Shown here: piece after piece, positions 40,591-63,424 of the stretch | Layout of the letters: every line of letters starts with the position of its first letter | Position numbering within the stretch: the stretch's first letter is position 1 | Program-made: the position numbers and the translations under genes | The notes under the pieces: generated by a model | Databases searched by the model: none | What the model was told of the DNA's origin: nothing | Seen by the model: only the letters and a program-made list of their open reading frames with translations | DNA from: an uncultured Flavobacteriaceae bacterium | GTDB taxonomy: Bacteria; Bacteroidota; Bacteroidia; Flavobacteriales; Flavobacteriaceae | DNA: 64,000 bases | Assembly (NCBI GenBank): GCA_947503005.1 | Contig: CANNCA010000005.1 | Span: 248,001 to 312,000 of the forward strand | Direction of reading: 5' to 3'

Positions 40591-40637
40591 CGAAAATAAA
40601 AGATGTCAGAAATCTTTGTATCCTGTACTGTACCGTA
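40591..40637 (-). promoter_or_regulatory. site A: shared repeat motif and -7 element, rhamnose operon
   Basis: On the minus strand TACGGTACAGTACAGGAT (40637 to 40620) is followed, 22 nt after its last T, by TATTTTCG (40598-40591), one mismatch from TAnnTTTG. This leaves a leader of about 20 nt before the rhaE start at 40566. The site also lies 113 nt upstream of the divergent GntR gene. Confidence 0.75.
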
Positions 40638-40749
40638 CACAGGTTTTCAAGATAGAAAAATATTTTTACCAGCTTTGCACTAATGTTCGCTTAAATCCTT
40701 TTTATTTGTTGCTAGCGGAGAGAATACCAAGAACCTAAAATATCTTATA

Positions 40750-41796
40750 ATGGAAATGTTTCGATACATCAAAATTGAAGAGAATTCAAGGATACCGAAG
40801 TACAAGCAGATTGTTGATGCCATTATTTATAATATTTCGGCCGGAAATCTAAAGATGGACGAGAAGATTCCGTCAATAAACATGTTCAGCGAGGAATATC
40901 TACTTTCAAGGGATACCGTTGAAAAAGCATATAACATATTGAAAGAACGTAAGGTAATCATATCTATAAGGGGAAAAGGATATTACATAGCCAGAACAAA
41001 ATTGATTTCCAAGGTCAATATTCTTTTCCTTATAAATAAGTTGAGTTCGTACAAGATGCGGATTTATAATTCTTTCGTCAACAGTATTGGCAGCACATCA
41101 CATACGGATCTTCATATATACCATTGTGAGGAAGATCTCTTTCTGAACCTTCTGGAAAAGAACAAAAATGCTTATGACTATTATGTCATTATGCCTCATT
41201 TTAAAACGGAGAAATTAAAACATGCCAGTTTTACCCCCGAAGTGGTCAAAGCAATAAATGAGATACCGAAGAACAAACTGGTTATAATGGATAACCCCAT
41301 TGCCGAAATAAAAGGGGCGTTTATTGAAATCTACCAGGATTTTGAGAACGACATATATAATTCACTTCAAGAAGGATTGGCCAAGATTTCAAAATACGAA
41401 AAGTTATTTATGGCTTATCCCGCAAATTCCGTGTATCCTTATCCCAAGAGAATTTTACATGGGTTCCGAAAATTTTGTGTTGAGCACAACATTGATTTTG
41501 AAGTGCTCGATGAAATTTATGATGATATGATTCTGAAAAAGGGAGATTTATTCATTATTATCACTGAATCGGATCTGGTCAACCTGGTCAATCAGATACG
41601 TATTCAAGAATTTGAATTGGGCAGTGATATAGGGGTAATATCATACAATGACACTCCTTTAAAGCAGCTATTGGGTATCACCTGTATTTCTACCGACTTT
41701 AAAACTATGGGCGAAACTGCAGCACGCATGATTATGGAGAAAGAGGATGGGAAAGTCAAAAACCCTTTTAATTTTATAGATAGAAATTCGATCTAA
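40750..41796 (+). CDS. GntR family regulator with sugar-binding-like effector domain
   Basis: A 348-residue regulator. Residues 1-75 are a GntR winged helix (YKQIVDAIIYNISAGNLKMDEKIPSINMFSEEYLLSRDTVEKA). The remaining 270 residues look like a LacI/periplasmic-binding-protein sensor (DIGVISYNDTPLKQLLGITCISTDFKTMGETAA), a combination seen in Bacteroidota regulators of sugar genes. It is divergent from the rhamnose operon with site A in the 183-nt spacer. It is the only regulator gene inside the polysaccharide region and hence the first candidate to bind the shared repeat motif, although direct-repeat sites are not typical for GntR proteins. An internal ATG at 40756 is an alternative start. Confidence 0.88.
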   Translation: MEMFRYIKIEENSRIPKYKQIVDAIIYNISAGNLKMDEKIPSINMFSEEYLLSRDTVEKAYNILKERKVIISIRGKGYYIARTKLISKVNILFLINKLSSYKMRIYNSFVNSIGSTSHTDLHIYHCEEDLFLNLLEKNKNAYDYYVIMPHFKTEKLKHASFTPEVVKAINEIPKNKLVIMDNPIAEIKGAFIEIYQDFENDIYNSLQEGLAKISKYEKLFMAYPANSVYPYPKRILHGFRKFCVEHNIDFEVLDEIYDDMILKKGDLFIIITESDLVNLVNQIRIQEFELGSDIGVISYNDTPLKQLLGITCISTDFKTMGETAARMIMEKEDGKVKNPFNFIDRNSI

Positions 41797-41851
41797 TAGA
41801 GACCGTTTTGAAATATTTGAGCGTTATATGTTGTTTAATTATACCAGATAT

Positions 41852-42763
41852 TTATTGGTAGCCTAGATATTCAATTCTATCTAGATTTTTACGAGTTGTC
41901 CGTTCATAAAGCTCATAGGCCAGACCATCTTTTAGCCCAACCTTGGGTACCAAGATTTGATCACTGCCCATTTCTTTAAGTACTCTTAAATATATTTCAG
42001 ATGCTGGAACAATGACATCGGCCCTATCGGGATTCATCTTTAGTATTGACATTCGCTCTTCATAGGTAAACGCTTTCACATAGGCACGTAATGCCTTTAG
42101 TTCGGCATACGATATGGCCATATTCGAAGCTTTGTTCGCCAATCCATAAAGCCGGTTAATATTCCCACCAGTACCTATTCCAACGATATTTTTTGATTTG
42201 TGAAAGGACGTGGAGTTGATCCACTTCTTCATTGAAGTAAAAACTGCACTCCGTTCTTTTGAGGTCAATTCGCGAACGGATCCGATTTTAAAGGAACGCC
42301 CCTGCACCAATTGGCCGCCTTCTATTAAATTTAGCTCGGTACTGCCACCCCCAACATCAATGTGTACATATCTTCGATTTTTTAAAGTAGGTATTATTGC
42401 CTTGTTCAATATGCTGGCTTCCTTCTTGCCGGTTATGATATTGATCTTCAAACCTACTTCTTCCAGAATTTGACGGCTTATCTCTTTTCCATTAACTGCC
42501 TCCCGCATCGCCGATGTGGCGACCGCAAAATAATCTTCTACTTCATAAAGGTCGATCAGATGTTTAAAGGTGCGCATCAGTTTTATGAATTTCTCCTTGG
42601 TCAAGGGGGAGATTTCCCCACGAGAAAACACATCATGCCCCAATCGCAACGGAAATCGCAATAATTGTAGATTCTTAAAACTGACCAGGTCCTCATCTTC
42701 ATAAACCTTTACGACCTGAAGCCTGATGGCATTCGATCCAATATCTATAGCGGCAAGTTTCAT
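41852..42763 (-). CDS. Ppx/GppA phosphatase family protein
   Basis: A 303-residue exopolyphosphatase or guanosine pentaphosphatase-type enzyme (ASKHA fold). The start at 42763 gives MKLAAIDIGSNAIRLQVVKV, the usual family N-terminus; the frame from 42823 adds 20 atypical residues. Other motifs: AVATSAMREAVNGKE, HIDVGGGSTELNLIEGG and VGIGTGGNINRLYG. At about 300 residues it lacks the C-terminal HD-like domain of long Ppx. It is a housekeeping gene lying between the rhamnose operon and kduI, with no clear link to either. Confidence 0.9.
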   Translation of the reverse strand: MKLAAIDIGSNAIRLQVVKVYEDEDLVSFKNLQLLRFPLRLGHDVFSRGEISPLTKEKFIKLMRTFKHLIDLYEVEDYFAVATSAMREAVNGKEISRQILEEVGLKINIITGKKEASILNKAIIPTLKNRRYVHIDVGGGSTELNLIEGGQLVQGRSFKIGSVRELTSKERSAVFTSMKKWINSTSFHKSKNIVGIGTGGNINRLYGLANKASNMAISYAELKALRAYVKAFTYEERMSILKMNPDRADVIVPASEIYLRVLKEMGSDQILVPKVGLKDGLAYELYERTTRKNLDRIEYLGYQ

Positions 42764-42858
42764 ATTGATTAAAGTTATTTGACTAGTTATTTTCAAGGGT
42801 TTAAATGTATCCGAAACTTTCAATTAAATTGTCATGCACTATCCTGTCAAAGAAGCAA

Positions 42859-42905
42859 TACAAGATAGCACAGGATGGACATTCTACTGGGGCCAATTAC
42901 TTTTA
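42859..42905 (+). promoter_or_regulatory. site B: shared repeat motif and -7 element, kduI operon
   Basis: TACAAGATAGCACAGGAT (42859-42876) is followed, 22 nt from its last T, by TACTTTTA (42898-42905), one mismatch from TAnnTTTG. The kduI start lies 91 nt further on. A half-site ATCCTGT in the opposite direction lies at 42841-42847. Confidence 0.7.
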
Positions 42906-42995
42906 GAGATCAACGATATATGATTATCTAAATGAGAATTCAACCTGTTAAGGAAACAGTCCAAAACATATAAATACTAAATACAAAAAAACGAC

Positions 42996-43835
42996 ATGGC
43001 AACTTCATATGAGACAAGATATGCCTCAAGTCCAGAGGCGGTAAAAAAATATGACACCACCCAACTACGAAATGAGTTCCTCATTGACAATCTCATGCAA
43101 AAAGGAAAAATCAATCTGACTTACACGCACTATGACCGTTATATTGCCGGATCAGTGGTTCCGGAAAGCCCGTTGAAATTGGAAACCATTGATCCGTTAA
43201 AGGCCGAGTTCTTTTTAGAAAGACGAGAATTGGGTATTATCAATGTTGGCGATGACGGTTCCGTTGAGGTAGATGGAACAACTTATGACCTCGGACATAA
43301 GGATGCCTTGTATATCGGTAGCGGCGCCAAAGAAGTAATTTTCAAAAGTGACAATGCCAGTAAACCTGCAAAATTCTATTTGAATTCCGCACCGGCACAT
43401 ACTTCGTATCCCACTAAAAAAGTTAGTCTTGAACAAGCAAATAAAATAGCGTTGGGTTCTTTAGAAACAGCCAACCACCGTACGGTCAGTCAAATGATTA
43501 TTGGAGGCGTTGTAACCACCTGCCAACTGCAGATGGGAATGACCGAGCTCAAGACCGGAAGCGTTTGGAACACCATGCCCGCCCATGTCCATGACCGCAG
43601 AATGGAGGTTTATTTTTATTTGGATGTACCTGAGGGACAGGCCGTCTGCCATTTTATGGGGCAGCCCCAAGAAACACGACATATCTGGATGCAAAATCAT
43701 CAAGCGGTAATTTCACCACCTTGGTCCATACACTGTGGTTCGGGTACATCAAACTACACTTTTATTTGGGGTATGGCCGGTGAAAATTTGGACTACAGCG
43801 ATATGGATGTCGCTAAAATTACCGACTTAAGATAA
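42996..43835 (+). CDS. kduI: 5-dehydro-4-deoxy-D-glucuronate isomerase KduI
   Basis: Isomerises 5-keto-4-deoxyuronate, formed from unsaturated uronic acids after lyase and GH105-type action, to the 2,5-diketo form on the way to KDG. The 279-residue cupin protein has the zinc-binding block MPAHVHDRRMEVYFYLD and the C-terminal PPWSIHCGSGTSNYTFIWGMAGEN, diagnostic for KduI. In this setting it deals with the uronate half of ulvan. It is followed by a DUF4861 lipoprotein after 4 nt. No kduD is visible in the window. Confidence 0.96.
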   Translation: MATSYETRYASSPEAVKKYDTTQLRNEFLIDNLMQKGKINLTYTHYDRYIAGSVVPESPLKLETIDPLKAEFFLERRELGIINVGDDGSVEVDGTTYDLGHKDALYIGSGAKEVIFKSDNASKPAKFYLNSAPAHTSYPTKKVSLEQANKIALGSLETANHRTVSQMIIGGVVTTCQLQMGMTELKTGSVWNTMPAHVHDRRMEVYFYLDVPEGQAVCHFMGQPQETRHIWMQNHQAVISPPWSIHCGSGTSNYTFIWGMAGENLDYSDMDVAKITDLR

Positions 43836-43839
43836 AGTC

Positions 43840-45018
43840 ATGAGAATATTCGTATTTATTTTGGCTATTTCCGTATCGGTGATGGTTTTATCCTGTACGG
43901 AAAAAACGGCATCTAATACACAAATCGTTGTCAAGAATACAATGGATTCCCATCGTTCATTAGAAACAGTTTCAGTAAATCTGGCTTCTCTTAAACTTTT
44001 GGAAAACGAAGGTCATATTGTATTAATAGATACAGAAACCCAAACCGAGGTTCTTTCACAACAAATAGATTCGGATGGTGATGGGCAACTAGATGCACTT
44101 CTCTTTCAGCCTGAAATTCCTGCAAATGGTGAAAAGATTTTTGAAGTGACCTTTTCCCAAGAACCGGCTAAAATTGATAGTATCCCGCCTTGCTATTCAC
44201 GATTTGTACCTGAACGAACAGATGATTATGCCTGGGAAAACAATCGTGTAGCTTTTAGAACCTATGGCCCTACCGCCCAAAAAATGAAAGAAGATGGTGT
44301 AAAGGGAGGTACACTTTCAAGTGGTATCGATGCTTGGTTGAAACGCGTGGATTATCCCATTATCAATAAATGGTACAAAAAAGAATTGGAGACCGATGGC
44401 AGCTATCATAAGGATGATGGTGAAGGACTTGACAATTTTCATGTGGGCATCAGCCGAGGGGTAGGAGGTATTGCCAAGAAAGTAGATACAACCTATCACA
44501 TATCCAAGAATTTCACCTCTTGGAAAACTTTGGCTACGGGCCCGATTAGAACAAGTTTTATCTTAACCTACGGAGACTGGGATGCGGCAGGCAATACAAT
44601 ATCCGAGGAGAAAACCATTTCATTGGATTATGGAAGTAACCTATCCAAATTTGAGATTACCTTAACGGGAACGGATACCATTTCTGCGGGACTTACCCTT
44701 CATGAAAAAGATGGTGAAATAGCAGTTAATCAAGAAAACGGTTGGATACGTTATTGGGAGCCTCACGGTGATTCGGAATTGGGGACGGGAATAGTTGTAC
44801 CGGAAAATGGGATGACAGGTCATGAACATTTTGTAGCTGATAGAAAAGATGAAAGTAATCTGTTCGCCCACATCAAATCCAAAAGTGATAAAGTTATCTA
44901 TTATGCAGGTTTTGGATGGAAGAAAAGCGGGCAGTTTTCTAACAAAGCGCAATGGGATGATTACTTGAATCAATTTGCTGAATGCCTAAAAAACCCATTG
45001 ATTGTTCAAGTAAAATGA
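43840..45018 (+). CDS. DUF4861 family lipoprotein
   Basis: A 392-residue lipoprotein (lipobox VLSC, Cys19). The body resembles DUF4861 proteins found in Bacteroidota polysaccharide loci: VNLASLKLLENEGHIVLID, then YSRFVPERTDDYAWENNRVAFRTYGP and GEGLDNFHVGISRGVGGIA. The fold is probably a beta sandwich; the activity is not known to me with certainty. It is co-transcribed with kduI (4-nt gap) and thus likely acts on a uronate-containing oligosaccharide or its product. Confidence 0.82.
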   Translation: MRIFVFILAISVSVMVLSCTEKTASNTQIVVKNTMDSHRSLETVSVNLASLKLLENEGHIVLIDTETQTEVLSQQIDSDGDGQLDALLFQPEIPANGEKIFEVTFSQEPAKIDSIPPCYSRFVPERTDDYAWENNRVAFRTYGPTAQKMKEDGVKGGTLSSGIDAWLKRVDYPIINKWYKKELETDGSYHKDDGEGLDNFHVGISRGVGGIAKKVDTTYHISKNFTSWKTLATGPIRTSFILTYGDWDAAGNTISEEKTISLDYGSNLSKFEITLTGTDTISAGLTLHEKDGEIAVNQENGWIRYWEPHGDSELGTGIVVPENGMTGHEHFVADRKDESNLFAHIKSKSDKVIYYAGFGWKKSGQFSNKAQWDDYLNQFAECLKNPLIVQVK

Positions 45019-45060
45019 AGGAAGAATGGGTCAAAATAGTTGGAAGCCGCTTATATTATT

Positions 45061-45107
45061 TTCAGGACAGCACAGGATGGCTTACTTCACTGTAAAATTT
45101 AAGTTTG
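45061..45107 (+). promoter_or_regulatory. site C: shared repeat motif and -7 element, sulfatase-GH78 operon
   Basis: TTCAGGACAGCACAGGAT (45061-45078) is followed, 22 nt from its last T, by TAAGTTTG (45100-45107), a perfect TAnnTTTG. The leader to the start codon at 45194 is about 80 nt, similar to that of kduI. Confidence 0.8.
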
Positions 45108-45193
45108 ATTAGTATGTTTCAATCTGTAACACTCAGATTTTTTAGATTGGAAGACTAATTTGAACTAACTTATCAAATAACATATTTATCAGA

Positions 45194-48100
45194 ATGAGAA
45201 TTATATTTATAATACTATTTTGTGTTTGCACAATTTCGCTAAAAGCTCAAAAAGGAGCCCAGCAGCAAAGCCAAAAACCCAACATCATCTTCATTCTTAC
45301 CGATGATCAGCGCTACAGCGCCTTGGGTTATGCAGGTAATGAACTTATTTCCACTCCGGAAATGGATAAACTGGCCAAAGAAGGGACCTATTTTGAAAAT
45401 GCGATGGTCACTACACCAATATGCGCAGCAAGTAGGGCCAGTATATTAACAGGGCTATATGAACGGACGCATAACTTTAATTTCCAGACAGGAAATATTC
45501 GTGAGGAATATATGACCAACTCTTATCCGAGAATCCTAAAGGAGAATGGTTATAAGACTGCATTCTACGGTAAGTACGGTGTACGATATAATGATCTGGA
45601 GAAACAATTTGACGAATACGAATCGTATGATCGCAACAATGCCTATCCTGATCGAAGAGGGTATTATTACAAGACATTGGGCAAAGACTCTGTTCACCTG
45701 ACACGGTACACAGGTCAAAAGGCGCTTGATTATATTTCAAAGGCCGATGCGAATAAGCCCTTTTGTCTCTCATTGAGTTTTAGTGCGCCCCACGCCCACG
45801 ACCCCGCTGAGGACCAATATTTTTGGCAAGAAGAATCCGATGCATTATTACAGAACATGAATATGCCAGGCCCGGAGCTAGGTGAAGACAAGTACTTTGA
45901 GGCGCAACCCAAAATTGTACGCGATGGTTTTAATCGTTTACGTTGGACATGGCGTTATGACACCCCCGAAAAATATCAGCATAGTGTAAAAGGGTATTAC
46001 CGAATGATTTCCGGAATTGATCGTGAAATCGCAAAAATTAGAGCAGAACTCAAAAAAAAGGGGATAGATAAAAACACGGTCATCATCCTAATGGGTGATA
46101 ACGGTTACTTTTTGGGAGAACGACAATTTGCGGGTAAATGGTTGATGTACGACAACTCTGTTCGGGTGCCCCTTATCGTTTTTGACCCAAGACAAAAGAA
46201 ACAGAAAGATAGCGACGCCCTAGCCCTGAACATTGATGTGCCCTCAACCATTTTAGATTTGGCAGGTATTGAACAACCGAATACTTGGCAAGGGAAAAGT
46301 TTAATGCCAATTGCTAGTAATAAGACAAAAGACTTTAAGCGTGACACCGTATTGATTGAACATATTTGGGATTTTGAAAATATTCCACCCAGCGAAGGGG
46401 TTCGAACAAAAGACTGGAAATATTTCCGCTACGTAAACGATAAAACCATTGAAGAACTGTACGATTTAAAGAAAGATCCGCAAGAAATCAATAACCTCGC
46501 AAAAGATCCGGCTTTTGCACAAAAACTCAATGCCTTCAGAAAGTCTACGGATGCTTTGATAGAAAAAAACAGCGATGCCTATCGAGCGGCTCCAACAGAT
46601 TTGACCGTAGAGCTAATTCGTTCTCCGGAATCCGAAGTTAAAATATTCGACTTGCAGCCCGAGTTTGGATGGACGGTACCCTTAGGTTCAAAATTCCAAT
46701 CGGCCTATCAAATTTTGGTAGCGTCAAGTCAATCGATTATCGACAGTAACAATGGCGACATTTGGGACAGCAAGCGCGTGGCCTCAAGTGCATCCACAGA
46801 TGTGGAATACGCTGGCGAATCCCTTGAAGTTGGAAAGACCTATTACTGGAAGGTGAGAATTTGGGATGAAGAAAATCGTCTGGTCGACTATTCCGAAGCA
46901 CAAACCTTTACTACAGGAAAAAGTGATAGCTACATTGTATCCACCGAAAACAAGTTTGTAACTACGAAGGTAAAGCCGGTATTGTTCGAAAAAAGAGGCG
47001 ATTTTTATTTTATCGATTTTGGGAAGGCCGCCTTTGCCACAATGAATTTTATATACGAGGCAAAAACACGGCATATATTGACAATAAGGGTTGGTGAAAT
47101 GGTAAACGAGGATGGAAATGTAAACAGAACCTCACCGGCAAAAAGTAATATCCGGTATCAAGAATTAAAAGTCGATGTAAAACCTGGTCAAACGAAATAC
47201 CAAATAGAAGTACAAAAGAATGAGCGAAATACCAGGGCCAATCAAGCCATTCCCCTTCCAGATGGTTTTCCACCATTGGTACCCTTTCGATATGCGGAGA
47301 TTGAAGGCGCACAGGAAACTTTGACTGCCGAAAGTGTTGAACAATTGGCTTTCCATACCTATTGGGATGAAAGTGCTAGTAGTTTTGAAAGTGATAATGA
47401 CATTTTAAATCAGGTATGGGACTTATGTAAATATTCCATAAAAGCGACCACATTTAATGGCTTGTATGTTGACGGGGATAGAGAGCGTATACCCTATGAA
47501 GCCGATGCGTATTTAAATCAATTGAGCCACTACACCACCGATCGAGAATTTGCCATAGGAAGACGTACGATAGAGTATTTTATGAAGAATCCGACATGGC
47601 CTACCGAATGGCAGCAACACGTGCCTTTGTTGATCCATGCGGATTACATGTATACGGGTAATACTGAATTGATTGAACGCTACTATGAAGCCTTAAAACA
47701 TAAATCACTTTACGAATTGTCCAATGAAGATGGTTTGATTACTTCGACAAAAGTGGATCGGGATTTTATGCGCAAACTTGGTTTTCCCGATGGATACAAA
47801 AAACCATTGACCGACATTGTTGATTGGCCTCCTGCAAATTTTAACGGCAGTACGACACCCGGAGAACGTGATGGATTTGTTTTCCAACCGTACAGTACGG
47901 TAATCAACGCTTTCTTTTATGAGAATATGAAAATCATGGCCGAGTTTGCCCGCATACTTGGTAAAACACAAGAAGTTTTGGACTTTGAGCTACGAGCTGC
48001 AAAAGCTAAGAAAGCGGTCAATGAACAAATGTTCGATAAAGAACGGGGCGTTTATGTCGATGGCATAGGAACGGACCATGCATCGTTGCACGCCAATATG

Positions 48101-48712
48101 ATGCCCCTGGCTTTTGGCTTAGTTCCTGAAGAACATTTTGAATCTGTAGTTGACTTCGTGAAATCCAGGGGCATGGCTTGTAGTGTTTACGGATCCCAGT
48201 TTTTAATGGATGGACTGTACAATGCCGGTGAAGCTGATTATGCGCTAGATTTATTGATCGATACCAGTGATCGAAGCTGGTACAATATGATTCGTATCGG
48301 TTCTACCATTACCTTGGAAGCATGGGATAATAAATACAAAAACAACCTCGATTGGAACCATGCATGGGGCGCCGTACCTGCAAATGTAATTCCGAGAGGT
48401 TTATGGGGAATAAAACCAAAAACTCCCGGATTCGGAATAGCTTCGATTAAGCCACAGATGAGCAAACTGAAATCGAGCACAATTGAGGTACCTACAGTTA
48501 GGGGAAAGATTAAAGGAAAATATACCCATAACGGTCCTAGGCTTCAGACTTATGAAATTGAGATACCGGGTAACATGGTGGCGGAATTTTCCTTAAACAA
48601 TCTTGAAGGAAAAGATTTCATCCACAATGGAGAAAAAGTGCCGCCTGCTTTTGAGTCCATCAGACTCTCACCGGGGAAGCATACCATACAGTTAAAAATC
48701 AATTCGTTTTAG
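45194..48712 (+). CDS. bimodular sulfatase / alpha-L-rhamnosidase (GH78) fusion
   Basis: A 1172-residue secreted enzyme (signal peptide ending LKAQ). Residues about 28-475 are a type I sulfatase: DD metal ligands in [13 protein letters not shown], formylglycine Cys77 in [11 protein letters not shown], and [17 protein letters not shown]. Residues about 478-575 form a fibronectin-like linker domain ([20 protein letters not shown]). The rest is a GH78 rhamnosidase with [20 protein letters not shown] and the (alpha/alpha)6 barrel. I recall the same architecture from the Formosa ulvan locus, where one protein both removes sulfate and cleaves rhamnose. First gene of a five-gene operon. Confidence 0.92.
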
Positions 48713-48725
48713 AAGATGACTAGAT

Positions 48726-50144: not shown

Positions 50145-50180
50145 TAAACCTGTGATGGCAAAAACTATCCTTAGTATAAA

Positions 50181-53794: not shown

Positions 53795-55570
53795 ATGAAA
53801 TTGGTGAAGAAAATTTTTGAGCCTCTGACGGGCGTACTCTTTTTAATGGCTTTTGTGCTGGTAAGCTGTCAAACAAAGAACCAAGATGTCAAGCCCGATG
53901 CAACAACCGTTGTGAAGGCAGAATTGCCGAAACACCCCAATATTTTATGGCTGGTTACCGAAGACATGGGACCTTACATTCCCCCTTTTGGTGATTCTAC
54001 CATCGTAACGCCCAACTTGAGTCGTTTGGCTAAGGAGGGCGTGGTGTATCCTAATTTATTTTCGACCTCAGGAGTATGCGCACCCAGTAGAGCTGCCATT
54101 ACCACAGGAATGTATCCTTCCTGCATCGGTGCGAATCACATGCGTACCACTTCAAATACCGAGGAGACCGGCCTACCTAAATATGAAGCGATTCCGCCCC
54201 TGCAAGCCCGCATGCTTAGTGAAATTCTTCGTATGAAGGGTTATTATTGTTCTAATAACTACAAAGAAGATTACCAATTCAAGGCACCTGTAACGGCTTG
54301 GGATGAAAGTAGCCCCTATGCACATTGGAGAAATCGCGCTAAGGATCAGCCCTTCTTTTCGGTTATGAACTTTACAGAGACGCACGAATCGGGATTGTTC
54401 GAACCCTATGGCTTTCGGGAAATTGAAACAAGGCATTACCAATCGGGCGATCCCAAGTATAAATGGAAGAATTATGGAGCCTCGCACGCTCAAAACAGAA
54501 TGGCCGAAGAAGACACACCGATTCATCTTTCTAAAGACACCGAGTTTAACATTCCGCCGTATTTGCCTGACACCGAAGTCGTTCGCCGTGATATGTGGAA
54601 GTTGTACAACAATATCGCTGAAATGGATAGGCAAGTCGGGGCCGTTTTAAAGCAGTTGAAAGACGACGGACTCTTAGAAAACACCATTATCTTTTTTTAT
54701 GGAGATCACGGGGGACCTTTACCTAGGGAAAAACGTTTGATTTATGATTCAGGCCTAAACACGCCAATGATTGTTCGTTTTCCGAATCAATTACATGCCG
54801 GTACGCGAGATGAACAATTGGTCAGCTTTGTTGATTTTGTACCCACCTTACTTTCTCTTATTGGAATAACCCCTCCAGAGTATATGCAGGGACAGGCTTT
54901 TTTAGGAGATTATAAAGCGCAGAAAGGGAGAAAGTACATCCACGCGGCGGCGGACCGCTTTGATGGTTTTACGGATGTTATTCGAGCGGTACGGGATAAA
55001 CATTATAAATACATTCGCAATTATAGACCTGAACAAGGCTACTATTTGCCAGTTGAATATCGGGAACGCATACCTGCTATGCAAGAATTATTGCGCTTGC
55101 GTAAAGAAGGAAAACTGGATAGCATCCAGGCGCAATGGTTTAGAAGCAGTAAAGACGCTGAGGAATTATTTGATTGTGAGGCCGACCCCTTTGAACTTCA
55201 CAATTTGGCCAAGGATCCCAAACATTCAGAAAAATTAAATGAATTGCGAACGGAGATGGACCGATGGCTTTTAGACATCGGCGACGAACCCAACCTCCCG
55301 GAAAAAGAACTCATTGCAAAATTATGGAACGGTAAAAAAACCAAGCCCTTAACCTTAAAACCCACAATCTCTTCTTCCGAAGGAAAAATTTCGATTCGTT
55401 CAAAAACTGCAGGGGCTTCTTTGGGGTATAAAATCCTTCCAAAAAATGGAACTCCTCCAAAAGCCTGGTCCGTTTACCAAGAACCCTTTGAGCTTCCCGA
55501 GGGATACATCGTATTGGCACAAGCACATCGAATAGGATTTGAACCTAGTGCAATCGTTGAAGGAAATTAA
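53795..55570 (+). CDS. family S1 sulfatase lipoprotein, heparan N-sulfatase-like
   Basis: A 591-residue type I sulfatase with lipobox LVSC (Cys25). The metal region NILWLVTEDMGPYIPPFGD has Glu-Asp where others have Asp-Asp, the formylglycine site is Cys95 in CAPSRAAITTGMYPS, and the second metal motif is FFYGDHGGPLPREKR. The following IGANHMRTT block is typical of the N-sulfoglucosamine sulfohydrolase-like group, though an O-sulfatase activity is equally likely here. The last 90 residues add a small beta domain (KPTISSSEGKISIRSKTAG). Last gene of the operon; it converges with the GH78 gene 7 nt away. Confidence 0.9.
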   Translation: MKLVKKIFEPLTGVLFLMAFVLVSCQTKNQDVKPDATTVVKAELPKHPNILWLVTEDMGPYIPPFGDSTIVTPNLSRLAKEGVVYPNLFSTSGVCAPSRAAITTGMYPSCIGANHMRTTSNTEETGLPKYEAIPPLQARMLSEILRMKGYYCSNNYKEDYQFKAPVTAWDESSPYAHWRNRAKDQPFFSVMNFTETHESGLFEPYGFREIETRHYQSGDPKYKWKNYGASHAQNRMAEEDTPIHLSKDTEFNIPPYLPDTEVVRRDMWKLYNNIAEMDRQVGAVLKQLKDDGLLENTIIFFYGDHGGPLPREKRLIYDSGLNTPMIVRFPNQLHAGTRDEQLVSFVDFVPTLLSLIGITPPEYMQGQAFLGDYKAQKGRKYIHAAADRFDGFTDVIRAVRDKHYKYIRNYRPEQGYYLPVEYRERIPAMQELLRLRKEGKLDSIQAQWFRSSKDAEELFDCEADPFELHNLAKDPKHSEKLNELRTEMDRWLLDIGDEPNLPEKELIAKLWNGKKTKPLTLKPTISSSEGKISIRSKTAGASLGYKILPKNGTPPKAWSVYQEPFELPEGYIVLAQAHRIGFEPSAIVEGN

Positions 55571-55577
55571 ATTATTT

Positions 55578-58328
55578 TTATGACTTTAAATTGCCTGCAG
55601 GATAGCTAAATTTATAGGTGCCCGACCCCAATTCCAATTGTACTCCGTCAGCGGTTTGTTGCATCTCAGATTTTGGCTTTCTACCGTTTAACATAACATT
55701 TTCCAGCTTAGTTTCAGGTAACGTAACCGTGCCCGTCGTATTAGCAGGAATAACAACTTCGTAGTGAAACATATCGTCCTTGATTTCCCAGCTGGATTTT
55801 ATTTTCCCGTAACCGGATAAAAATTCCGCTTTGGCAGAAGTTAATCCCCCTCCAGGATGTGGGTCAAAAATAATATGCTTGTAACCTGGGTTTTCAGGAT
55901 CAATGTTCAATCCTCCGATATAATTATACATCCATTCACCAACGGCACCGTACGAATAGTGGTTGAAACTGTTCATACCTTCAATGATGGTACCGTCTGG
56001 TTTTTGAGTATCCCAGCGCTCCCAAATGGTGGTAGCGCCCATAGTAATCGGATAGAGCCATGAGGGAAATTCCTTTCGGTTTAGCAACATAAAGGCCAAA
56101 TCATCACGACCTATTTTGGATAAGGTGGTACAGAGTAGGGGAGTACCCAAGAAACCTGTGGTCAGATGTCCGAATTTCTCCACATCTTGTGCAAAATATG
56201 AGCCTGTTTTTTCGATGAGGTTTTCAGGAATTAAATCAAATGAAAGTGCCAAGGCATAGGCCGTTTGGGTGTGTGATACCAACCTTCCGTTTGGCGTAAT
56301 ATATTCCTTTATAAAGGCTTCCTTGATATTTTTGGCTAAGGCTTTATATTTTTCAACATCTTCTGCCTTCCCTAGAATACCTGCTATTTTCCCCAACAGT
56401 GTTGTAGAATAGTAGGCGTAAGCCGTAGCAATGAGGTCTTTTTCGGTAACAGAACCATTGTACGCAGGATTGTTGGCATCAAAGGCGAGCCAGTCGCCCC
56501 AATGCCAATGCTTGTTATTGTTCCATAAATAATCATTGCCCGACTCTTTGGCCATATAGTCGACCCAGCCCTTCATGCTGCTATATTGTTCTTCTAAAAT
56601 TCGCTTGTCTCCATAAGACTGGTATACCGTCCAAGGTATGATTACCGCTGCATCGGCCCAACCTGTGGCACCTCCCTTGGCCGCAACCCCTTGCGCTCCC
56701 GTTAGAATATCTGGAATCACATTAGGGACCAACCCATTCTCATGCTGGTCTGCCGCCAAATCTTTTAACCATTTGGTATAGAAGGCAGCGACGTCGAAAT
56801 TATAGGCCGCTGTCATGCTAAACACTTGGGCATCACCTGTCCATCCGGCGCGTTCGTCACGTTGCGGACAATCGGTAGGAATATCCAAAAAATTATCCTT
56901 TTGTCCCCATTGAATATTGCTTTGCAATTGATTTATCATAGGGTCTGATGTGGTAAAATTTCCAGTAGGTTTTATATCGGAATGGATGACGATTCCAGTA
57001 ATGTCATCAAGACTCAACTCGCCCGGATAATCGATAACCTGAATGTACCGAAAGCCATGATTAGTGAAATGGGGCTCAAAGATTTCTTCGCCTCCACCTT
57101 TTAAGATGTAGGTGTCCGTAGCTTTTGCCGCGCGAAGATTGGTAGTATAAAAGTTACCCTCTTTATCCAAAACTTCAGCAAATTTTAAAGTGACTTTATC
57201 TCCGGCTTTTCCATTTATTCTCATACGTGCCAAGCCTACGATATTCTGACCTAGATCCAAAACGATCTCCCCTTTTGGTGTCGTAATCAATTCCTTAGGC
57301 TTGATTTCTTCAATGGCTTTAACGGGTGGCCCTTGTGGAGCTACAAGAATTTCTTTCGAATGTTCTAAGATTTCGACCTTTGTCCATTGGTCGTCCAGAA
57401 ATCCGCTTTCGGCCCAGCCGTCCATCTCCAAACGGGCATCATATATTTCGCCATTGTACATGTCGGATTCCAAAATAGGTCCATAAGAAGCTTTCCAATC
57501 TCCATTGCTTACAATAGTTTCGCTTGTGCCATCGGCATAGTTGATTTTCAATTGTACCAAAAGCGCCAATTGCTTCCCGTAAAAGGCATAGTCTCCCTTC
57601 CAACCGATATTGCCGCGGTACCAACCATCGCCAACGATAGCCCCGATGGCATTGTTCGTTTGAAGCATATTCGTTACATCGTAGGTCTGATATTGCAGTC
57701 TTTTGTTATAGGTCGTATAGCCCGGAGTAAAAAGGTCGTTACCAACCTTTTTTCCATTCAGGTATAATTCATAGAGGCCTAATGCGGTAACCTGCACTTC
57801 AGCAGATTTTATCGATTTTTTAGTTTGGAATTCGGTTCTGAAATATTGGGCCGGGTGTGATTTCTTTTCGGTCGTAATGTCATCCATGGCAATATAAGAG
57901 GCCGTCCAAAGGGAGTTGTCCAAAATACCCATTTCCCAAAAAGCAGGAGCACTCCATGAAGAGGCTCTGTTCTTATTGTTCCAAACTCGGACTTGCCAAT
58001 ACACCCGTTGCATAGATTTGAGGGCAGGTCCACCATAAACTATATTTACAGATTCATCACTTTCTATCTTGCCTGAAGACCAGATAAGATCTTGTCCGAT
58101 CTGTAGTTTCTTCTTTGAATCGGCCACACGTATTTCATAGGCCGATTGCATCCAATTTTGGCTATCGGTTTGAATTTGCCAGCTTAATCGAGGTTTTTCG
58201 ACATCGATGCCGATGGGGTTTTCATGATATTCACAGACAAGCTTGACGACTTCATCTTTTTTCAAGGAGAAAGATGTTGTTAGTGTCAGGCCCAATAGTA
58301 GAAATCCGAATTGTATTGCTTTTTTCAT
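55578..58328 (-). CDS. alpha-L-rhamnosidase (GH78)
   Basis: A 916-residue secreted glycoside hydrolase removing alpha-L-rhamnose by inversion. The start at 58328 (MKKAIQFGFLLLGLTL) gives a normal signal peptide; an ATG at 58343 is also possible. Domains: N-terminal beta sandwich (PRLSWQIQTDSQNWMQSAYEI), rhamnosidase N domain (YFRTEFQTKKSIKSAEVQVTALGLYELYLNGKKVG), (alpha/alpha)6 barrel with the family catalytic block DIPTDCPQRDERAGWTGDAQ around residue 490, and C-terminal beta domain. The gene has its own promoter with site D and is separated from susD by a strong terminator. Confidence 0.95.
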   Translation of the reverse strand: MKKAIQFGFLLLGLTLTTSFSLKKDEVVKLVCEYHENPIGIDVEKPRLSWQIQTDSQNWMQSAYEIRVADSKKKLQIGQDLIWSSGKIESDESVNIVYGGPALKSMQRVYWQVRVWNNKNRASSWSAPAFWEMGILDNSLWTASYIAMDDITTEKKSHPAQYFRTEFQTKKSIKSAEVQVTALGLYELYLNGKKVGNDLFTPGYTTYNKRLQYQTYDVTNMLQTNNAIGAIVGDGWYRGNIGWKGDYAFYGKQLALLVQLKINYADGTSETIVSNGDWKASYGPILESDMYNGEIYDARLEMDGWAESGFLDDQWTKVEILEHSKEILVAPQGPPVKAIEEIKPKELITTPKGEIVLDLGQNIVGLARMRINGKAGDKVTLKFAEVLDKEGNFYTTNLRAAKATDTYILKGGGEEIFEPHFTNHGFRYIQVIDYPGELSLDDITGIVIHSDIKPTGNFTTSDPMINQLQSNIQWGQKDNFLDIPTDCPQRDERAGWTGDAQVFSMTAAYNFDVAAFYTKWLKDLAADQHENGLVPNVIPDILTGAQGVAAKGGATGWADAAVIIPWTVYQSYGDKRILEEQYSSMKGWVDYMAKESGNDYLWNNNKHWHWGDWLAFDANNPAYNGSVTEKDLIATAYAYYSTTLLGKIAGILGKAEDVEKYKALAKNIKEAFIKEYITPNGRLVSHTQTAYALALSFDLIPENLIEKTGSYFAQDVEKFGHLTTGFLGTPLLCTTLSKIGRDDLAFMLLNRKEFPSWLYPITMGATTIWERWDTQKPDGTIIEGMNSFNHYSYGAVGEWMYNYIGGLNIDPENPGYKHIIFDPHPGGGLTSAKAEFLSGYGKIKSSWEIKDDMFHYEVVIPANTTGTVTLPETKLENVMLNGRKPKSEMQQTADGVQLELGSGTYKFSYPAGNLKS

Positions 58329-58360
58329 GAAATATTTATTCATATGCTCATTACCTTGCC

Positions 58361-58407
58361 TAAAAATAGCCTTCGAGATTAGTTAATGTGTCCTGTACCA
58401 TACTGCT
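58361..58407 (-). promoter_or_regulatory. site D: shared repeat motif and -7 element, GH78 gene
   Basis: On the minus strand AGCAGTATGGTACAGGAC (58407 to 58390) is the weakest copy of the motif. Even so, 22 nt from its last base lies TATTTTTA (58368-58361), one mismatch from TAnnTTTG. The rhamnosidase start follows at 58343 or 58328. Confidence 0.6.
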
Positions 58408-58436
58408 TTCCAAAGATCTGGCAACATCAATAAAAT

Positions 58437-58470
58437 AAAAATGGGGTAAACATATCGTTTACCCCATTTT
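58437..58470 (-). terminator. strong hairpin terminator after susD
   Basis: A perfect 14-bp stem AAAATGGGGTAAAC / GTTTACCCCATTTT (58438-58451 and 58457-58470) with a five-base loop lies 73 nt beyond the susD stop. On the minus strand the stem ends in a T-rich tail. It separates the susCD transcript from the GH78 promoter. Confidence 0.8.
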
Positions 58471-58542
58471 CAAAACTAACTCAACAAACTCAAGAGCTTA
58501 AATTCCAAAGAGGAATATAACCTTCAAGATTTTTTTTACGCC

Positions 58543-60111
58543 TTATCTATACCCATTATTGGTTGGGTCTGACTCCAACAACGCCGGGTTTTGTTCCAAT
58601 TCTCGTAACGGAATCGGTAACAATACATGATAGGGTCTAATATTAACATTGGGTTCCCAGAAGCGATATTCTAAATTTTGAACCACGTCCAATAAAATAC
58701 CCCAACGAATCAAATCATATCGTCTATGGGCTTCCGCAGCTAATTCCCACTTTCGCTCATCGTAAATAGCTTCCCTGAACTCTTGTTGGCTTAATCCTAC
58801 AAGTTCCCATTCGGCTTGGGTTTCATAGGCGCGCTGTCGTATCGGGTGAATATACTGATAAGCGTTAGCCGGGCCGTTCAGTTCATTTTCACACTCAGCG
58901 GCCATCAAATACACATCGCCCATGCGAAAAACCAGTCGATTGTCTTCATGATTGAAGCGAGGTGAGGTATCCAAATCCAAATTCCAAAATTTCGGCATAT
59001 AGGGAAAATTCAATTCGAAACCCAAATAAGTGTCTGCAATGTTCAATGGTCTTCTTAAATCATTCAATGGGAATTTTTCGGCAAAATCTTTTGATGCTAC
59101 TTGTAAGCCAGTGCCGTTAAAAGCTTGGCCCAGTGAGCTCAATGAATCCCTAAGGGCACCCCTTTCATCGGAGTTTTTCGGCTCATCCCTTAACCGTGGG
59201 TTAAACATACTTGGTCTCCAACTGTTATTACCAGCAAAGGCCCTGCCTGGAAATGCAGGGTCAAATTGACTATTTATATCCCTTGCAAAATCTAAAGACC
59301 AAATAATTTCAGCATTATATTCATTTAACGGATCAAAAACTTCCGCATAGGTAGGCAATAAAGTATGAGGTGACTCATTCATAATTTGCAAGCATTTGCT
59401 CAAACCGGCCTGCCAATTTTGTTGCTTCATATAAATTTTCGCCTCAATTATGGCGGCTGCCCATTTGGTCGCGCGCCCTCTTTGATCGTCAGCATATGAA
59501 TCTGGCAAATTAGCTTGGGCAAATTGCAAATCAGCTATTACACCATCTAAGATTATAGCTTCATCTGTTCTTCCTAAGGCCCCAACTTCTTCAAGAGACA
59601 ATGCTTCTGTGTAGTAAGGCGCATCACTCCAAAGATTGGTAATATGCCAATAACATAAGGCACGTAAAAATGTGGCTTCTGCAATAACCTCTGTACGTAC
59701 TTCTTCAAGTATGGCTTCATTATCCGTTACTCTATCTATAATAAAATTTGAGTTAAAGACTACTCTGTACAAATCTTTCCAAGTATCAGACACACTCATT
59801 TTTTGTACGGATACATCGGCCAAGGCTTCATCCAATGTATAAGCGCCAATAGGTTGCACAAAATTTGCAGGACGGTTCGGTTCTATGATATCGGCACCAT
59901 TGTCATAAAAATGATCAAGGCCTACCTGACCATAAATAGAATTGTTCTTTAAAATGGCATACGTACCCTGTATGGCTTGTCTTGCATCATTATCCGATGC
60001 AAAAAACGTTTCAGGAGCAACAATTGCTCTTGGGTCTTCTTCTAAAAACTTTTCGCATCCAAAAAAGGAGAATACTACGAAGATGTATAAAAATATATTC
60101 TTTGTTTTCAT
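58543..60111 (-). CDS. susD: SusD/RagB family glycan-binding lipoprotein
   Basis: A 522-residue outer-membrane lipoprotein (lipobox FFGC, Cys19) that sits as a lid on the SusC pore and binds the oligosaccharide. Typical features: EKFLEEDPRAIVAPETFF after the lipid anchor, TPR-like helices (ATFLRALCYWHITNLWSDAPYY), and the C-terminal RGALRDS-type and YDERKWELAAEAHRRYDLIRWG blocks. It starts 12 nt after the susC stop. In this locus the ligand is expected to be a sulfated rhamnose-uronate oligosaccharide. Confidence 0.95.
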   Translation of the reverse strand: MKTKNIFLYIFVVFSFFGCEKFLEEDPRAIVAPETFFASDNDARQAIQGTYAILKNNSIYGQVGLDHFYDNGADIIEPNRPANFVQPIGAYTLDEALADVSVQKMSVSDTWKDLYRVVFNSNFIIDRVTDNEAILEEVRTEVIAEATFLRALCYWHITNLWSDAPYYTEALSLEEVGALGRTDEAIILDGVIADLQFAQANLPDSYADDQRGRATKWAAAIIEAKIYMKQQNWQAGLSKCLQIMNESPHTLLPTYAEVFDPLNEYNAEIIWSLDFARDINSQFDPAFPGRAFAGNNSWRPSMFNPRLRDEPKNSDERGALRDSLSSLGQAFNGTGLQVASKDFAEKFPLNDLRRPLNIADTYLGFELNFPYMPKFWNLDLDTSPRFNHEDNRLVFRMGDVYLMAAECENELNGPANAYQYIHPIRQRAYETQAEWELVGLSQQEFREAIYDERKWELAAEAHRRYDLIRWGILLDVVQNLEYRFWEPNVNIRPYHVLLPIPLRELEQNPALLESDPTNNGYR

Positions 60112-60123
60112 ATCTAATTTTTT

Positions 60124-63100
60124 TTAAAAAGTTAGGTTTAGACCAATTGTAATAATCCGAGGATTAGGATAGTTCGCATCTAAAAATCCAAGCGCTATAT
60201 TGCCAAATTGATTATTACCTTCGTTAAAGTTATTGGCCTCAGGTTCGATCAATCTTGTTTTGGAGAACAACAACAAGTTACTACCGTTTAAATATATAGT
60301 CACATTTTTGACTCCGTCCAAGCCCATTTTGTCGGTAGGAAAGTTATAAGCCAATCGTACCGCCTTAAGACGGATGTGTGAACCATCCTCTACATATTCT
60401 GAATTAATAGGTGTATTGGTTACAGAATCACTTCCTGCCCTTGGTATATTAGAGGTAGGATTATCTGGAGTCCAACGATCTCGTAAATCCCCGAATTTTA
60501 TGGTCTCGCCACGATTGAAATAGTGATTTCGCATTCTTAAGTTAAACACCTCATTGCCAGTCGTACCTTGAAAGAAAAAAGAAAAATCAAGATTCTTGTA
60601 CGAAAATGAGTTTTCGAACCCGAAAATCAAATCAGGAAAGGGACTACCTAATACAACATTGTCTTCGGTCGAGATAATACCATCGCCGTTCAAATCCTCA
60701 AATCTTGACCCACCAACGGTTTGAGATGTTAAACCAGAAGCATCGATTTCCGCTTGACTCTTCCAAGTACCTAAATAATTTACTCCCGTATAAACAGGAA
60801 CCGATTCACCGACGATCAATCGCGTATTGCCCGAACCTATAATAGGGTCTACAACAACATCTATGAATTCTTGACCACCTAGATCTAATATTTTATTCTT
60901 ATTTGCTGCCAATGTCAAGGTGGTATTCCAATTAAAGTTTTCATTGGATATGTTGGTTGAATTAACCAATAATTCCCATCCTTTGTTTTCAAGTGCGCCC
61001 ACATTTTGCAATTGGCTTGTAAAACCGGTCTGTCTGGGTATGGTTACATCTAAAAGTAAATCATTGGTCTCTTTTTGATAATAGTTAAATTCCGTGAAGA
61101 GCCTGCCACCGAACAGTGATGCTTCCAAAGCGATATCCAATGAGGTTGTGGTTTCCCATTGTAGGTTTGGATTTGAAGGTCTACCCAATGTTCTTCCAGG
61201 CACCTCGGCACCATTAAGTGTCGTGTTCGCATCCGTTAGTACCCCAAACGTTCTATAAGGCCCGATAGCCTGATTACCAGACTTACCCCAACTGGCCCTT
61301 AACTTTAGATCTGAGAATAAACTCTGATCTTGCATAAAGTTTTCTTCGCTGATTTTCCAGGCCGCTGCTACCGAAGGATAGAATTCATACTTATTTCCTG
61401 GTGCAAAGACAGAACTACCATCTGTTCGACCTACCAAGGTCAATAGATATTTGTCTTTATAGTCGTAATTAATCCTTCCAAAAAACGAAGCGATTTGAAA
61501 TCCGTTATAGTCACTACTTACGACAGATCGAATTGGATCTGAATTACCTAAACTATTAAAACCAGTGGCGTCACTAGTAATGCCAAATGCCTCTGCCTCT
61601 GTAATTTCAGTTTCTACTTTTTGAAAAGAAGCACCGCCAAGAACGGTCAAGCTATGATTTTCACCAAAATCAGTATTGTACTGAATAGTGTTTTCATTGT
61701 TCCAACCAACCCCTGCTACGGTTCTAACACTTGCGTTTCCGCCATCGGTTACTCCTATGGCAAGATTACCAGGTAACTGACTGGAATTGAATATGTTTCG
61801 TTTAACATTATTGAATTCTGGGCTGAAAGTAGAACGAATGGTCCAAGCGGGTGTTGGTTTGTATTCTAAATATATCGTACCCAATAAATTATTGGTAAAG
61901 GTCCCACCTTTATTCAGCTCGAAATTGGCAAGCGGATTACTAAATGGCGAACCAACGACATCATTAAACCCGTTGAATGTGCCATCATCATTGAATGCGG
62001 GTTGTGTGCTCAAGGTTCCAAAGGCATTGCCACCAAAAGAGGTAAGCCCACGGTTATTTTTAAGTCTCGAGTAATTGATACGAAAACCAGCTTTCAATTT
62101 ATCACTTAGATTTATATCTAAATTTGATCGAAAAATGAACTTTTCAATACCCGTACTTTTTACAATACCTTCTTGATTAAAGTAGTTTATAGAATTGTAA
62201 TAGTTCACATTTTCTGACGCTCCTGAAATAGATACATCCGCATTATAAATTGGAGCGGGCCCCGTCGTTAAGTCAACCCAATCATTATCAGGGTAGGTAG
62301 ATGGGTCATCTGGGAATGGTAACGCCACACCTCTAAATTCAGCATGTTCATTCGTAAAAGCAATTTGTTCTTCTCGAGTTAATACATCAGGCAATTCAGG
62401 CAACATTTGCATACTGGTGAATACATTGACACTCACTTCAGGTTTTCCGGTTCCCGTACCGCGACCACTTTTGGTCGTAACCAAGACCACACCGTTGGCA
62501 CCTCTAGAACCATAAATTGCAATGGAAGATGCGTCTTTTAAGATTTCAATGGATTGAATATCACTAGGGTTGATATTGTTCAAGTTGAAATTGGTTCCAA
62601 CCACAATACCATCAATTACGAACAATGGTTCATTACTACCCGTAATAGAATTACCACCCCTTACTCGAATGGCGGTTCCTGCTCCTGGCGCACCACTTGA
62701 TTGAGTCACCTGAACACCCGCGGCTCTACCTTGAAGTACCTGATCAACTCTTGAAGCGGGTACTTGAGTAATATCTTCGGAACTTACGGATGATACAGAA
62801 CCTGTAAGATCTTTTTTGGTTGTGGTACCATAGCCAATGACAACCACTTCATCAAGTGCGTTGTCTGTTTCTAAAACTACATTGATTTGGTTTTGAGTGC
62901 CTACTACTATTTCTTTAGTGGCAAAACCAATGTAAGAAAATTGTAAGGTATCGTCTGCTCCCGCTTCAATGGTATAATTTCCATCGAAGTCTGTGCTCAC
63001 ACCTTGAGTGGTACCTTTTATGACCACTGAAGCCCCAGGTAATGGCCCTTCACTATCGGATACCGTACCCGTAACGGTTTGCTGAGACCATGCAGCCATG

Positions 63101-63171
63101 CAGCTGAATGCCAGCAACAAAGTCAGGCACTGTGTCCAGAGTTTGTTTGAAGTTGATTTTGTTTTTTTCAT
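60124..63171 (-). CDS. susC: SusC/RagA family TonB-linked outer membrane transporter
   Basis: A 1015-residue TonB-dependent importer of oligosaccharides. After the signal peptide (ending near AAWSQ) comes a carboxypeptidase-like beta domain (VTGTVSDSEGPLPGASVVIK), then the plug with VVIGYGTTTKKDLTGSVSSV, PASRVDQVLQGRAAGVQV and IRVRGGNSITGSNEPLFVID, and finally the 22-strand barrel ending in NPRIITIGLNLTF with a terminal Phe. The gene is transcribed from a promoter carrying four tandem 10-bp repeats (site E) and is followed by susD. Confidence 0.97.
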   Translation of the reverse strand: MKKTKSTSNKLWTQCLTLLLAFSCMAAWSQQTVTGTVSDSEGPLPGASVVIKGTTQGVSTDFDGNYTIEAGADDTLQFSYIGFATKEIVVGTQNQINVVLETDNALDEVVVIGYGTTTKKDLTGSVSSVSSEDITQVPASRVDQVLQGRAAGVQVTQSSGAPGAGTAIRVRGGNSITGSNEPLFVIDGIVVGTNFNLNNINPSDIQSIEILKDASSIAIYGSRGANGVVLVTTKSGRGTGTGKPEVSVNVFTSMQMLPELPDVLTREEQIAFTNEHAEFRGVALPFPDDPSTYPDNDWVDLTTGPAPIYNADVSISGASENVNYYNSINYFNQEGIVKSTGIEKFIFRSNLDINLSDKLKAGFRINYSRLKNNRGLTSFGGNAFGTLSTQPAFNDDGTFNGFNDVVGSPFSNPLANFELNKGGTFTNNLLGTIYLEYKPTPAWTIRSTFSPEFNNVKRNIFNSSQLPGNLAIGVTDGGNASVRTVAGVGWNNENTIQYNTDFGENHSLTVLGGASFQKVETEITEAEAFGITSDATGFNSLGNSDPIRSVVSSDYNGFQIASFFGRINYDYKDKYLLTLVGRTDGSSVFAPGNKYEFYPSVAAAWKISEENFMQDQSLFSDLKLRASWGKSGNQAIGPYRTFGVLTDANTTLNGAEVPGRTLGRPSNPNLQWETTTSLDIALEASLFGGRLFTEFNYYQKETNDLLLDVTIPRQTGFTSQLQNVGALENKGWELLVNSTNISNENFNWNTTLTLAANKNKILDLGGQEFIDVVVDPIIGSGNTRLIVGESVPVYTGVNYLGTWKSQAEIDASGLTSQTVGGSRFEDLNGDGIISTEDNVVLGSPFPDLIFGFENSFSYKNLDFSFFFQGTTGNEVFNLRMRNHYFNRGETIKFGDLRDRWTPDNPTSNIPRAGSDSVTNTPINSEYVEDGSHIRLKAVRLAYNFPTDKMGLDGVKNVTIYLNGSNLLLFSKTRLIEPEANNFNEGNNQFGNIALGFLDANYPNPRIITIGLNLTF

Positions 63172-63212
63172 ACAGTTGTTTATTTAATGATTGAGTTATC
63201 GTTGAATATGGT

Positions 63213-63279
63213 CAAAAATATTGGAGTCCGTTTACATGTTCATCCTGCACTGTACTGTACTATCCTGTACTGTCCTGTA
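63213..63279 (-). promoter_or_regulatory. site E: tandem repeat motif and -7 element, susCD promoter
   Basis: On the minus strand two motif copies stand head to tail: TACAGGACAGTACAGGAT (63279 to 63262) and TACAGTACAGTGCAGGAT (63259 to 63242), 20 nt apart, so together they form four 10-bp repeats. The -7 element TATTTTTG (63220-63213), a perfect TAnnTTTG, begins 22 nt after the last T of the nearer copy. No -33 TTG is present between them. Confidence 0.82.
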
Positions 63280-63377
63280 CTTAATAATTTTGGTGAAATT
63301 TTTCTGATTTCTCATGATTAGTGGATGGCTTCATTTCTCATTTACCAGCATAAATAGCATCTCAAATTGAGATACCT

Positions 63378-63424
63378 AACACGACAGAGCAGGATACCTT
63401 AATTTATTCATAGTGGTATTTTAG
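63378..63424 (+). promoter_or_regulatory. site F: shared repeat motif and -7 element, GH3 gene
   Basis: AACACGACAGAGCAGGAT (63378-63395) is followed, 22 nt from its last T, by TATTTTAG (63417-63424), one mismatch from TAnnTTTG. The GH3 start codon lies 22 nt beyond. Confidence 0.68.

Follow-up and report, generated by a model that had tools for sequence, protein, structure and literature searches.

Tandem repeats before promoters of a rhamnose and polysaccharide locus in Flavobacteriaceae, with a GntR-LacI chimera as candidate regulator

The window analysed here comprises 64,000 nucleotides from an uncultured marine Flavobacteriaceae bacterium (GenBank assembly GCA_947503005.1, contig CANNCA010000005.1, positions 248,001 to 312,000) and holds a polysaccharide locus in which the promoters of a rhamnose (rha) operon, kduI, a sulfatase-GH78 fusion, GH78, susC and GH3 share a direct-repeat site. 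Site, spacing, orientation, conservation, target genes, and the linkage and co-occurrence of a regulator gene were read from the sequence. Based on these features, we consider it rather probable that the repeat is the site of a dedicated rhamnose regulator, a GntR-LacI chimera that would recognise 10-bp direct repeats and probably function as a class II activator.

Repeat copies and their distance to the -7 box

All seven repeat copies lie where a first, sequence-only reading had placed them, and all are oriented the same way relative to their own gene. With up to 3 mismatches allowed, the window contains 6 matches versus 0.03 expected from 100 shuffles, 3 of the 6 being frames of the single susC array. 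The genome-wide scan that this reading had proposed as a check returned 9 matches at the same tolerance (4.58 Mb; reversed control 1), and not hundreds before unrelated genes; seven of the 9 fall inside C5:288620-317110 and represent 5 promoters, the susC array contributing 3. Genome-wide scans used patterns with mismatches in place of a full matrix, and a composite scan with 2 mismatches yielded mostly background (78 matches versus 33 in the reversed control), so that only matches with at most 1 mismatch were used (9, of which 7 lie in the locus). The core CAGGAY by itself was dropped as a signal because its count in the window is at chance level (50 matches, 46.3 expected). Relative to the first consensus, 6 of 18 positions differ in the GH78 copy and 4 of 18 in the GH3 copy; both were missed by the window search and neither is convincing by sequence alone, but each is followed by a -7 box at exactly 21 nt.

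Alignment at CAGGAT revealed that all six window promoters carry TAnnTTTG, the -7 box of Bacteroidota sigma-A, or a close variant of it, starting exactly 21 nt downstream, a distance of two helical turns. The own-locus scan covered the window and the next 33 kb of the contig with the pattern CRGTACAGTACAGGAT at a threshold of at least 12 of 16 positions with CAGGA, which is independent of the -7 box. Thirteen places passed. Eleven are promoters, one is the distal susC copy and one lies in an open frame (continued coordinate 96084). Of the 11 promoters, 10 have TA..[TA]T at exactly 21 (P ~1e-14 at a background of 0.031 per position). The regulon extends over about 43 kb, with 5 of its 11 promoters beyond the window edge, and the local regulon of import, desulfation, glycoside cleavage and rhamnose and uronate catabolism that had been proposed from the window is what the scans show.

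The same distance was found in a larger set drawn from the own locus, 80 relatives' loci and 40 family-genome stretches (at least 13 of 16 with CAGGA, exact duplicates removed). Among 148 non-coding instances, TAnnTT starts at +21 in 119, at +22 in 5 and at +20 in 3, with a mean of 2.6 at the remaining offsets. The 29 instances lacking TAnnTT at +21 consist of 9 with TAnnAT at +21, 9 upstream array copies, 5 at +22, 3 at +20 and 3 with none of these, while coding-class instances, counted apart, show TAnnTT at +21 in 2 of 8.

A logo was built from 119 of 158 sites (flank identity below 60%) selected for CAGGA and TA..[TA]T at 21, so that these columns are conserved by selection; neither the final two positions of the second unit nor the G of TAnnTTTG entered the selection. 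It displays two head-to-tail units, CAGKAYAG and CAGGAYRS, 10 bp or one helical turn apart. Repeat scores over the 119 sites amount to 5.31 of 8 for period 10 and 4.86 for period 5, with 3.76 of 7 for the best palindrome centre. A palindromic reading had been considered for the rha copy, which holds the AraR-box-like CNGTACNGTACNG, and was demoted because the direct repeat fits the 119 sites better; rha copies look palindromic because GTAC is, and the remaining copies do not retain GTAC symmetry. An extra unit 10 or 20 bp upstream occurs at 7 of 15 SusC promoters versus none of 52 RhaEW promoters and 1 of 52 other promoters.

Conservation in relatives and the GntR-LacI chimera

The candidate regulator is a 348-aa protein encoded at 40750-41796 on the plus strand, divergently from the rha operon. 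Its N-terminal half is a GntR helix-turn-helix domain (PF00392, E 4.9e-10 in Pfam) and its C-terminal half a LacI/GalR-type effector domain (PF13377, Peripla_BP_3, E 6.5e-07), and sequence matches in the PDB, including AraR (4egy), cover residues 5-107 only, that is the DNA-binding half. The recognition helix SRDTVEKAY is nearly identical across 28 orthologues, from which an AlphaFold model was obtained (mean pLDDT 82.5, pTM 0.65); the predicted fold matches LacI-family regulators in the PDB, with a TM-score of up to about 0.55 of the query.

A scan of a collection of species genomes with the GntR protein as query yielded 127 confirmed relatives, of which the best 80 loci were retained; in 46 of these 80, the 350 bp upstream of the GntR gene contain a match to the site's regular expression. 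Across relatives the site in this upstream region is kept and its flanks vary, and the same site and spacing stand before RhaEW from Maribacter and Zobellia to Lewinella, with five Lewinella-type loci (L063, L076, L078, L086, L087) sharing the layout. Outside the own locus we counted 109 sites, of which 51 lead to RhaEW, 5 have no open frame in range and 53 lead to other genes. The target tables hold the best 25 of 28 and the best 25 of 36 families, and some proteins have no match; among the matches listed for the 53 other targets are 14 SusC proteins, 10 sulfatases, 5 proteins with a GH78 rhamnosidase domain (some of them sulfatase-fused), 3 fructose-bisphosphatases and 3 GDSL lipases, together with single targets such as RhaT, KduI, GH88, GH28 and rhamnogalacturonidase. 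Sites in related genomes had been expected to concentrate before polysaccharide genes, and their downstream genes include SusC, sulfatases, GH78, RhaT, KduI, GH88 and the rha operon. This theme of rhamnose, pectin-type and sulfated polymers fits a rhamnose sensor better than a sensor of a single polysaccharide.

Two further observations concern these relatives. In some of them, sites precede fructose-1,6-bisphosphatase (3 of 53) and the RhaT symporter (L131 and L153 among the loci), as if gluconeogenesis were switched on with rhamnose. The Flavobacterium GntR copies (L068, L070-L072, L075, L077, L079, L083, L085, L089) have the palindromic word GGTAATCGATTAC upstream, directly behind a TTTG, which resembles an ordinary repressor site.

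Among 149 family genomes, 33 encode RhaEW; all 33 have a GntR match (E at most 1e-60), in 28 of them with at least 55% identity. The motif GTACAGTACAGGAT occurs in 18 of the 149, all 18 with RhaEW and 17 with a GntR of at least 55% identity (Fisher 4e-14, in a test that ignores phylogeny). Of 296 genomes drawn across the class, 2 carry the strict motif CNGKACAGTACAGGATR, both with a GntR of at least 70% identity, and 1 carries the reversed control. Co-occurrence as proof for the GntR protein was set aside as insufficient, as RhaEW and GntR co-occur in 33 of 33 genomes. Because the two travel together, GntR copies away from RhaEW are more informative. In a census of copies with at least 50% identity and at least 250 aligned residues, 64 of 66 rha-linked copies have a site with its -7 box at 21 or 22 within 700 bp; so do 8 of 33 unlinked copies, for which 60 permuted motifs gave 0.08 on average and 2 at most. 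For one of these eight (L060), RhaEW lies elsewhere in the same locus. Linkage and co-occurrence support the chimera as the probable binder of the repeat.

Activator geometry and alternative explanations

In Flavobacterium the -7 box lies at -12 to -5 (PMC9723704). Since the -7 box is taken at this position, the site spans about -50 to -32, where a -33 element would be. It overlaps the -33/-35 region and keeps a constant distance to the -7 box, as expected of a class II activator site; given this activator-type geometry, operator may be a misleading term. GabR is an activator whose site lies at -35. A -33 TTG is found in 4 of 119 regulon promoters versus 13 of 68 control promoters, the site itself occupying those bases, and its scarcity points weakly to activation. 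We favour class II activation because an activator that touches the polymerase needs a fixed distance and one orientation, which a repressor does not.

Binding by the chimera, its inducer and activation over repression are what we infer. The chimera would bind the head-to-tail repeats in place of the -33 element, its LacI-type domain would sense rhamnose or an early catabolite, and the bound protein would help RNA polymerase from the class II position. Several susC promoters carry extra units, and regulon size may scale from a single rha operon to the 11-promoter polysaccharide regulon. That the chimera works by class II activation and regulates rhamnose use in many Flavobacteriaceae and in Lewinella-type bacteria, and is with that an additional type of rhamnose regulator and the first activator of the AraR type in the literature searched, has in our judgement about an even chance.

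AraR of Bacillus subtilis likewise combines a GntR winged helix with a LacI/GalR-type sugar domain and controls sugar and polysaccharide genes, acting as a repressor on palindromes from which it is released by its sugar (PMC4218819). The rha-type site holds GTAC-N-GTAC, resembling the AraR box GTaCGTAc, whereas the sites described here consist of direct repeats and keep a single distance to the -7 box, which suggests activation. The chimera is AraR-like in architecture, the sites assigned to it are not palindromic operators, and it was not filed as an AraR-type repressor. A survey of rhamnose regulons lists RhaR regulators of the AraC, DeoR and LacI types, which control rha operons and rhamnoside utilization, the AraC-type ones as activators and the DeoR-type ones on direct repeats of 10-11 bp (PMC3870299); the word GntR is absent from its main text, and the GntR-LacI chimera belongs to a different protein family. 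FarR, NagQ, NanR and GabR are GntR-family proteins on direct repeats (PMC4494728), as proposed here, but differ from the chimera in C-terminal domain and repeat sequence. In a reconstruction for Bacteroides, RhaR is of the AraC type, and direct-repeat sites stand before polysaccharide utilization operons with repeats averaging 21 bp apart for HTCS (hybrid two-component system) regulators and 67 or 77 bp apart for SusR (PMC3878776), unlike the 10-bp period of the present sites; the scanned locus proteins include no HTCS regulator. The sequence-only reading knew of no published account of the motif, and none was found in the literature searched; subscription papers, RegPrecise and supplements were outside this scope, so an earlier in silico account is possible, and the two papers found to contain the letters TACAGTACAGGA deal, to judge by their titles, with other subjects.

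The same regulator and sites could also work by repression, with the chimera covering the -33 region and blocking polymerase, a block lifted when rhamnose or a catabolite releases the chimera. AraR shares the two-domain architecture and is such a sugar-released repressor, a site over -33 could block polymerase as well, and repeats alone do not imply activation, given that a Chloroflexus DeoR-type rhamnose repressor binds tandem repeats (PMC3870299). A repressor, however, needs neither an exact distance nor one orientation, and both are kept across non-homologous promoters of this one genome and in many genera, which leaves repression rather unlikely in our view. More doubtful still is that the sites belong to another regulator encoded elsewhere, for example of the AraC, DeoR or hybrid two-component type, with the GntR protein a mere neighbour. 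Such a regulator would be compatible with the co-occurrence data and could draw on the known rhamnose regulators of the AraC, DeoR and LacI types, including the DeoR-type proteins on 10-11 bp repeats (PMC3870299). Its likelihood is lowered by the GntR gene adjoining the site in nearly all rha-linked copies (64 of 66), by the sites flanking 8 of 33 GntR copies away from RhaEW (permuted mean 0.08), and by the lack of any other DNA-binding regulator among the locus proteins scanned (31-86 kb), a scan from which short frames were left out.

A repeat that serves as the -35 element of an alternative sigma factor of the extracytoplasmic function (ECF) type would account for the fixed spacing. Sigma elements have fixed spacing. 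The downstream element, however, is the primary sigma-A box TAnnTTTG, flavobacterial ECF-type promoters carry a CGT box (PMC9723704), and extra upstream units at 7 of 15 SusC promoters do not suit a sigma site, all of which makes this explanation highly improbable.

Several results weigh against the chimera as class II activator. The AraR-type protein known from the literature represses, and does so from palindromes, and the -33 TTG shortage is partly forced by the site and therefore a weak argument for activation. The GH43 promoter (continued coordinate 69108, minus strand) is the sole exception in the own locus, with a strong site (15/16) that lacks a -7 box at 21 nt. Three loci of other families (L167, L168, L169) have a diverged GntR (41-46%) next to RhaEW and do not maintain the 21-nt spacing: a CAGGA site still precedes RhaEW, with a -7 spacing of 22 in L169 and none in L167 and L168. 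The looser motif GKACAGKACAGGAY occurs in 26 family genomes, 5 of which lack RhaEW; 10 of 12 class-wide genomes with a GntR match (8 of these at below 60% identity) lack the strict CNGKACAGTACAGGATR; and for 25 of the 33 GntR copies away from rha, the surrounding 700 bp hold no site. Co-occurrence, moreover, cannot separate GntR from another rha-linked factor. In the fetched loci L165, L166, L170 and L171, which lack RhaEW, no convincing site was found.

Genes of the locus and substrate

On the minus strand, the rha operon operator TACGGTACAGTACAGGAT (40620-40637), recognised by sequence and kept before RhaEW in relatives, is followed at 21 nt by the -7 box TATTTTCG (40591-40598). The putative operon (31671-40566), delimited by common strand and short gaps, starts with RhaEW (38461-40566) and continues with an RhaI-like isomerase, an FGGY kinase, an FMN L-lactate dehydrogenase-like protein, a membrane protein and a sulfatase. 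The 470-aa membrane protein (33126-34538, minus strand) matched nothing in Pfam or NCBIfam; at its N-terminus it is similar to proteins of 468 aa (L132) and 467 aa (L134), each with its own site, and it is a candidate rhamnose transporter of an undescribed kind.

The plus-strand operator of kduI, TACAAGATAGCACAGGAT (42859-42876), is kept in the relatives' loci L010, L011 and L040 and lies 21 nt from the -7 box TACTTTTA (42898-42905), ahead of kduI and a DUF4861 gene (42996-45018). The sequence-only reading had confined the motif to its named operons, which holds for the other operons of the window, but a weak divergent match was found before a Ppx/GppA gene (42831-42848, minus strand; 21 nt from the -7-like box TACATTTA), whose membership is uncertain. 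Also on the plus strand, the sulfatase-GH78 operator TTCAGGACAGCACAGGAT (45061-45078), again assigned by its letters, and its -7 box TAAGTTTG (45100-45107, 21 nt) precede a gene at 45194-48712 in which a sulfatase and an alpha-L-rhamnosidase (GH78) domain are fused; it heads a gene run whose sulfatases continue to 55570.

On the minus strand, the GH78 alpha-L-rhamnosidase gene (55578-58343) has the weak operator copy AGCAGTATGGTACAGGAC (58390-58407) and the -7 box TATTTTTA (58361-58368), again at 21 nt. The pair of susC (60124-63171) and susD (58543-60111), together 58543-63171 on the minus strand, is preceded by a proximal operator TACAGTACAGTGCAGGAT (63242-63259), 21 nt from the -7 box TATTTTTG (63213-63220), and by a distal operator TACAGGACAGTACAGGAT (63262-63279) 20 bp further upstream. 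The weak GH3 copy AACACGACAGAGCAGGAT (63378-63395, plus strand) lies 21 nt from the -7 box TATTTTAG (63417-63424), and the GH3 gene (63440-64000, plus strand) extends past the window end.

Beyond that edge, promoter sites were located at continued coordinates 69174 (plus strand) for a GMC oxidoreductase, 75903 (minus) for a 639-aa protein without a Pfam match, 78851 (minus) for a second GH78 and 83528 (minus) for a PSCyt1/DUF1549/DUF1553 and DUF1501 cluster, besides the GH43 site given above. The genes of this cluster (about 79000-83330; L120:15001-17992, L121:2-1330) stand behind a regulon promoter, and the names of the PSCyt1, DUF1549, DUF1553 and DUF1501 domains are taken from Planctomycetes.

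With its SusCD pair, sulfatases, rhamnose catabolism, GH78, GH3, GH43 and GH88, the locus suits a rhamnose-rich polysaccharide, and ulvan is a candidate substrate; the same gene set also fits other rhamnose-rich sulfated polymers. No lyase family, ulvan lyases of known PL families included, was found among the Pfam-scanned proteins of the locus, a scan that left out short frames and some neighbours and in which the 639-aa protein had no significant match. Few regulators of marine polysaccharide loci have been tested. In the present case a short motif and a spacing rule predict regulon members across genera from DNA alone, and the motif links outer-membrane import and sulfatases with rhamnose catabolism in the cytoplasm via a likely intracellular sensor. 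For the Bacteroidota, in which sigma-A and promoters are unlike those of most other bacteria, it also supplies a promoter grammar that can be put to the test, and marine flavobacteria gain a set of candidate promoters inducible by rhamnose.

Elsewhere in the window, at 25090-31662, a LacI-family gene is divergent from an operon with a PdxA-like dehydrogenase, a cyclase, a DUF1537-type kinase, an MFS transporter and a Gfo/Idh/MocA gene; no site of the rhamnose regulon was found in this region.

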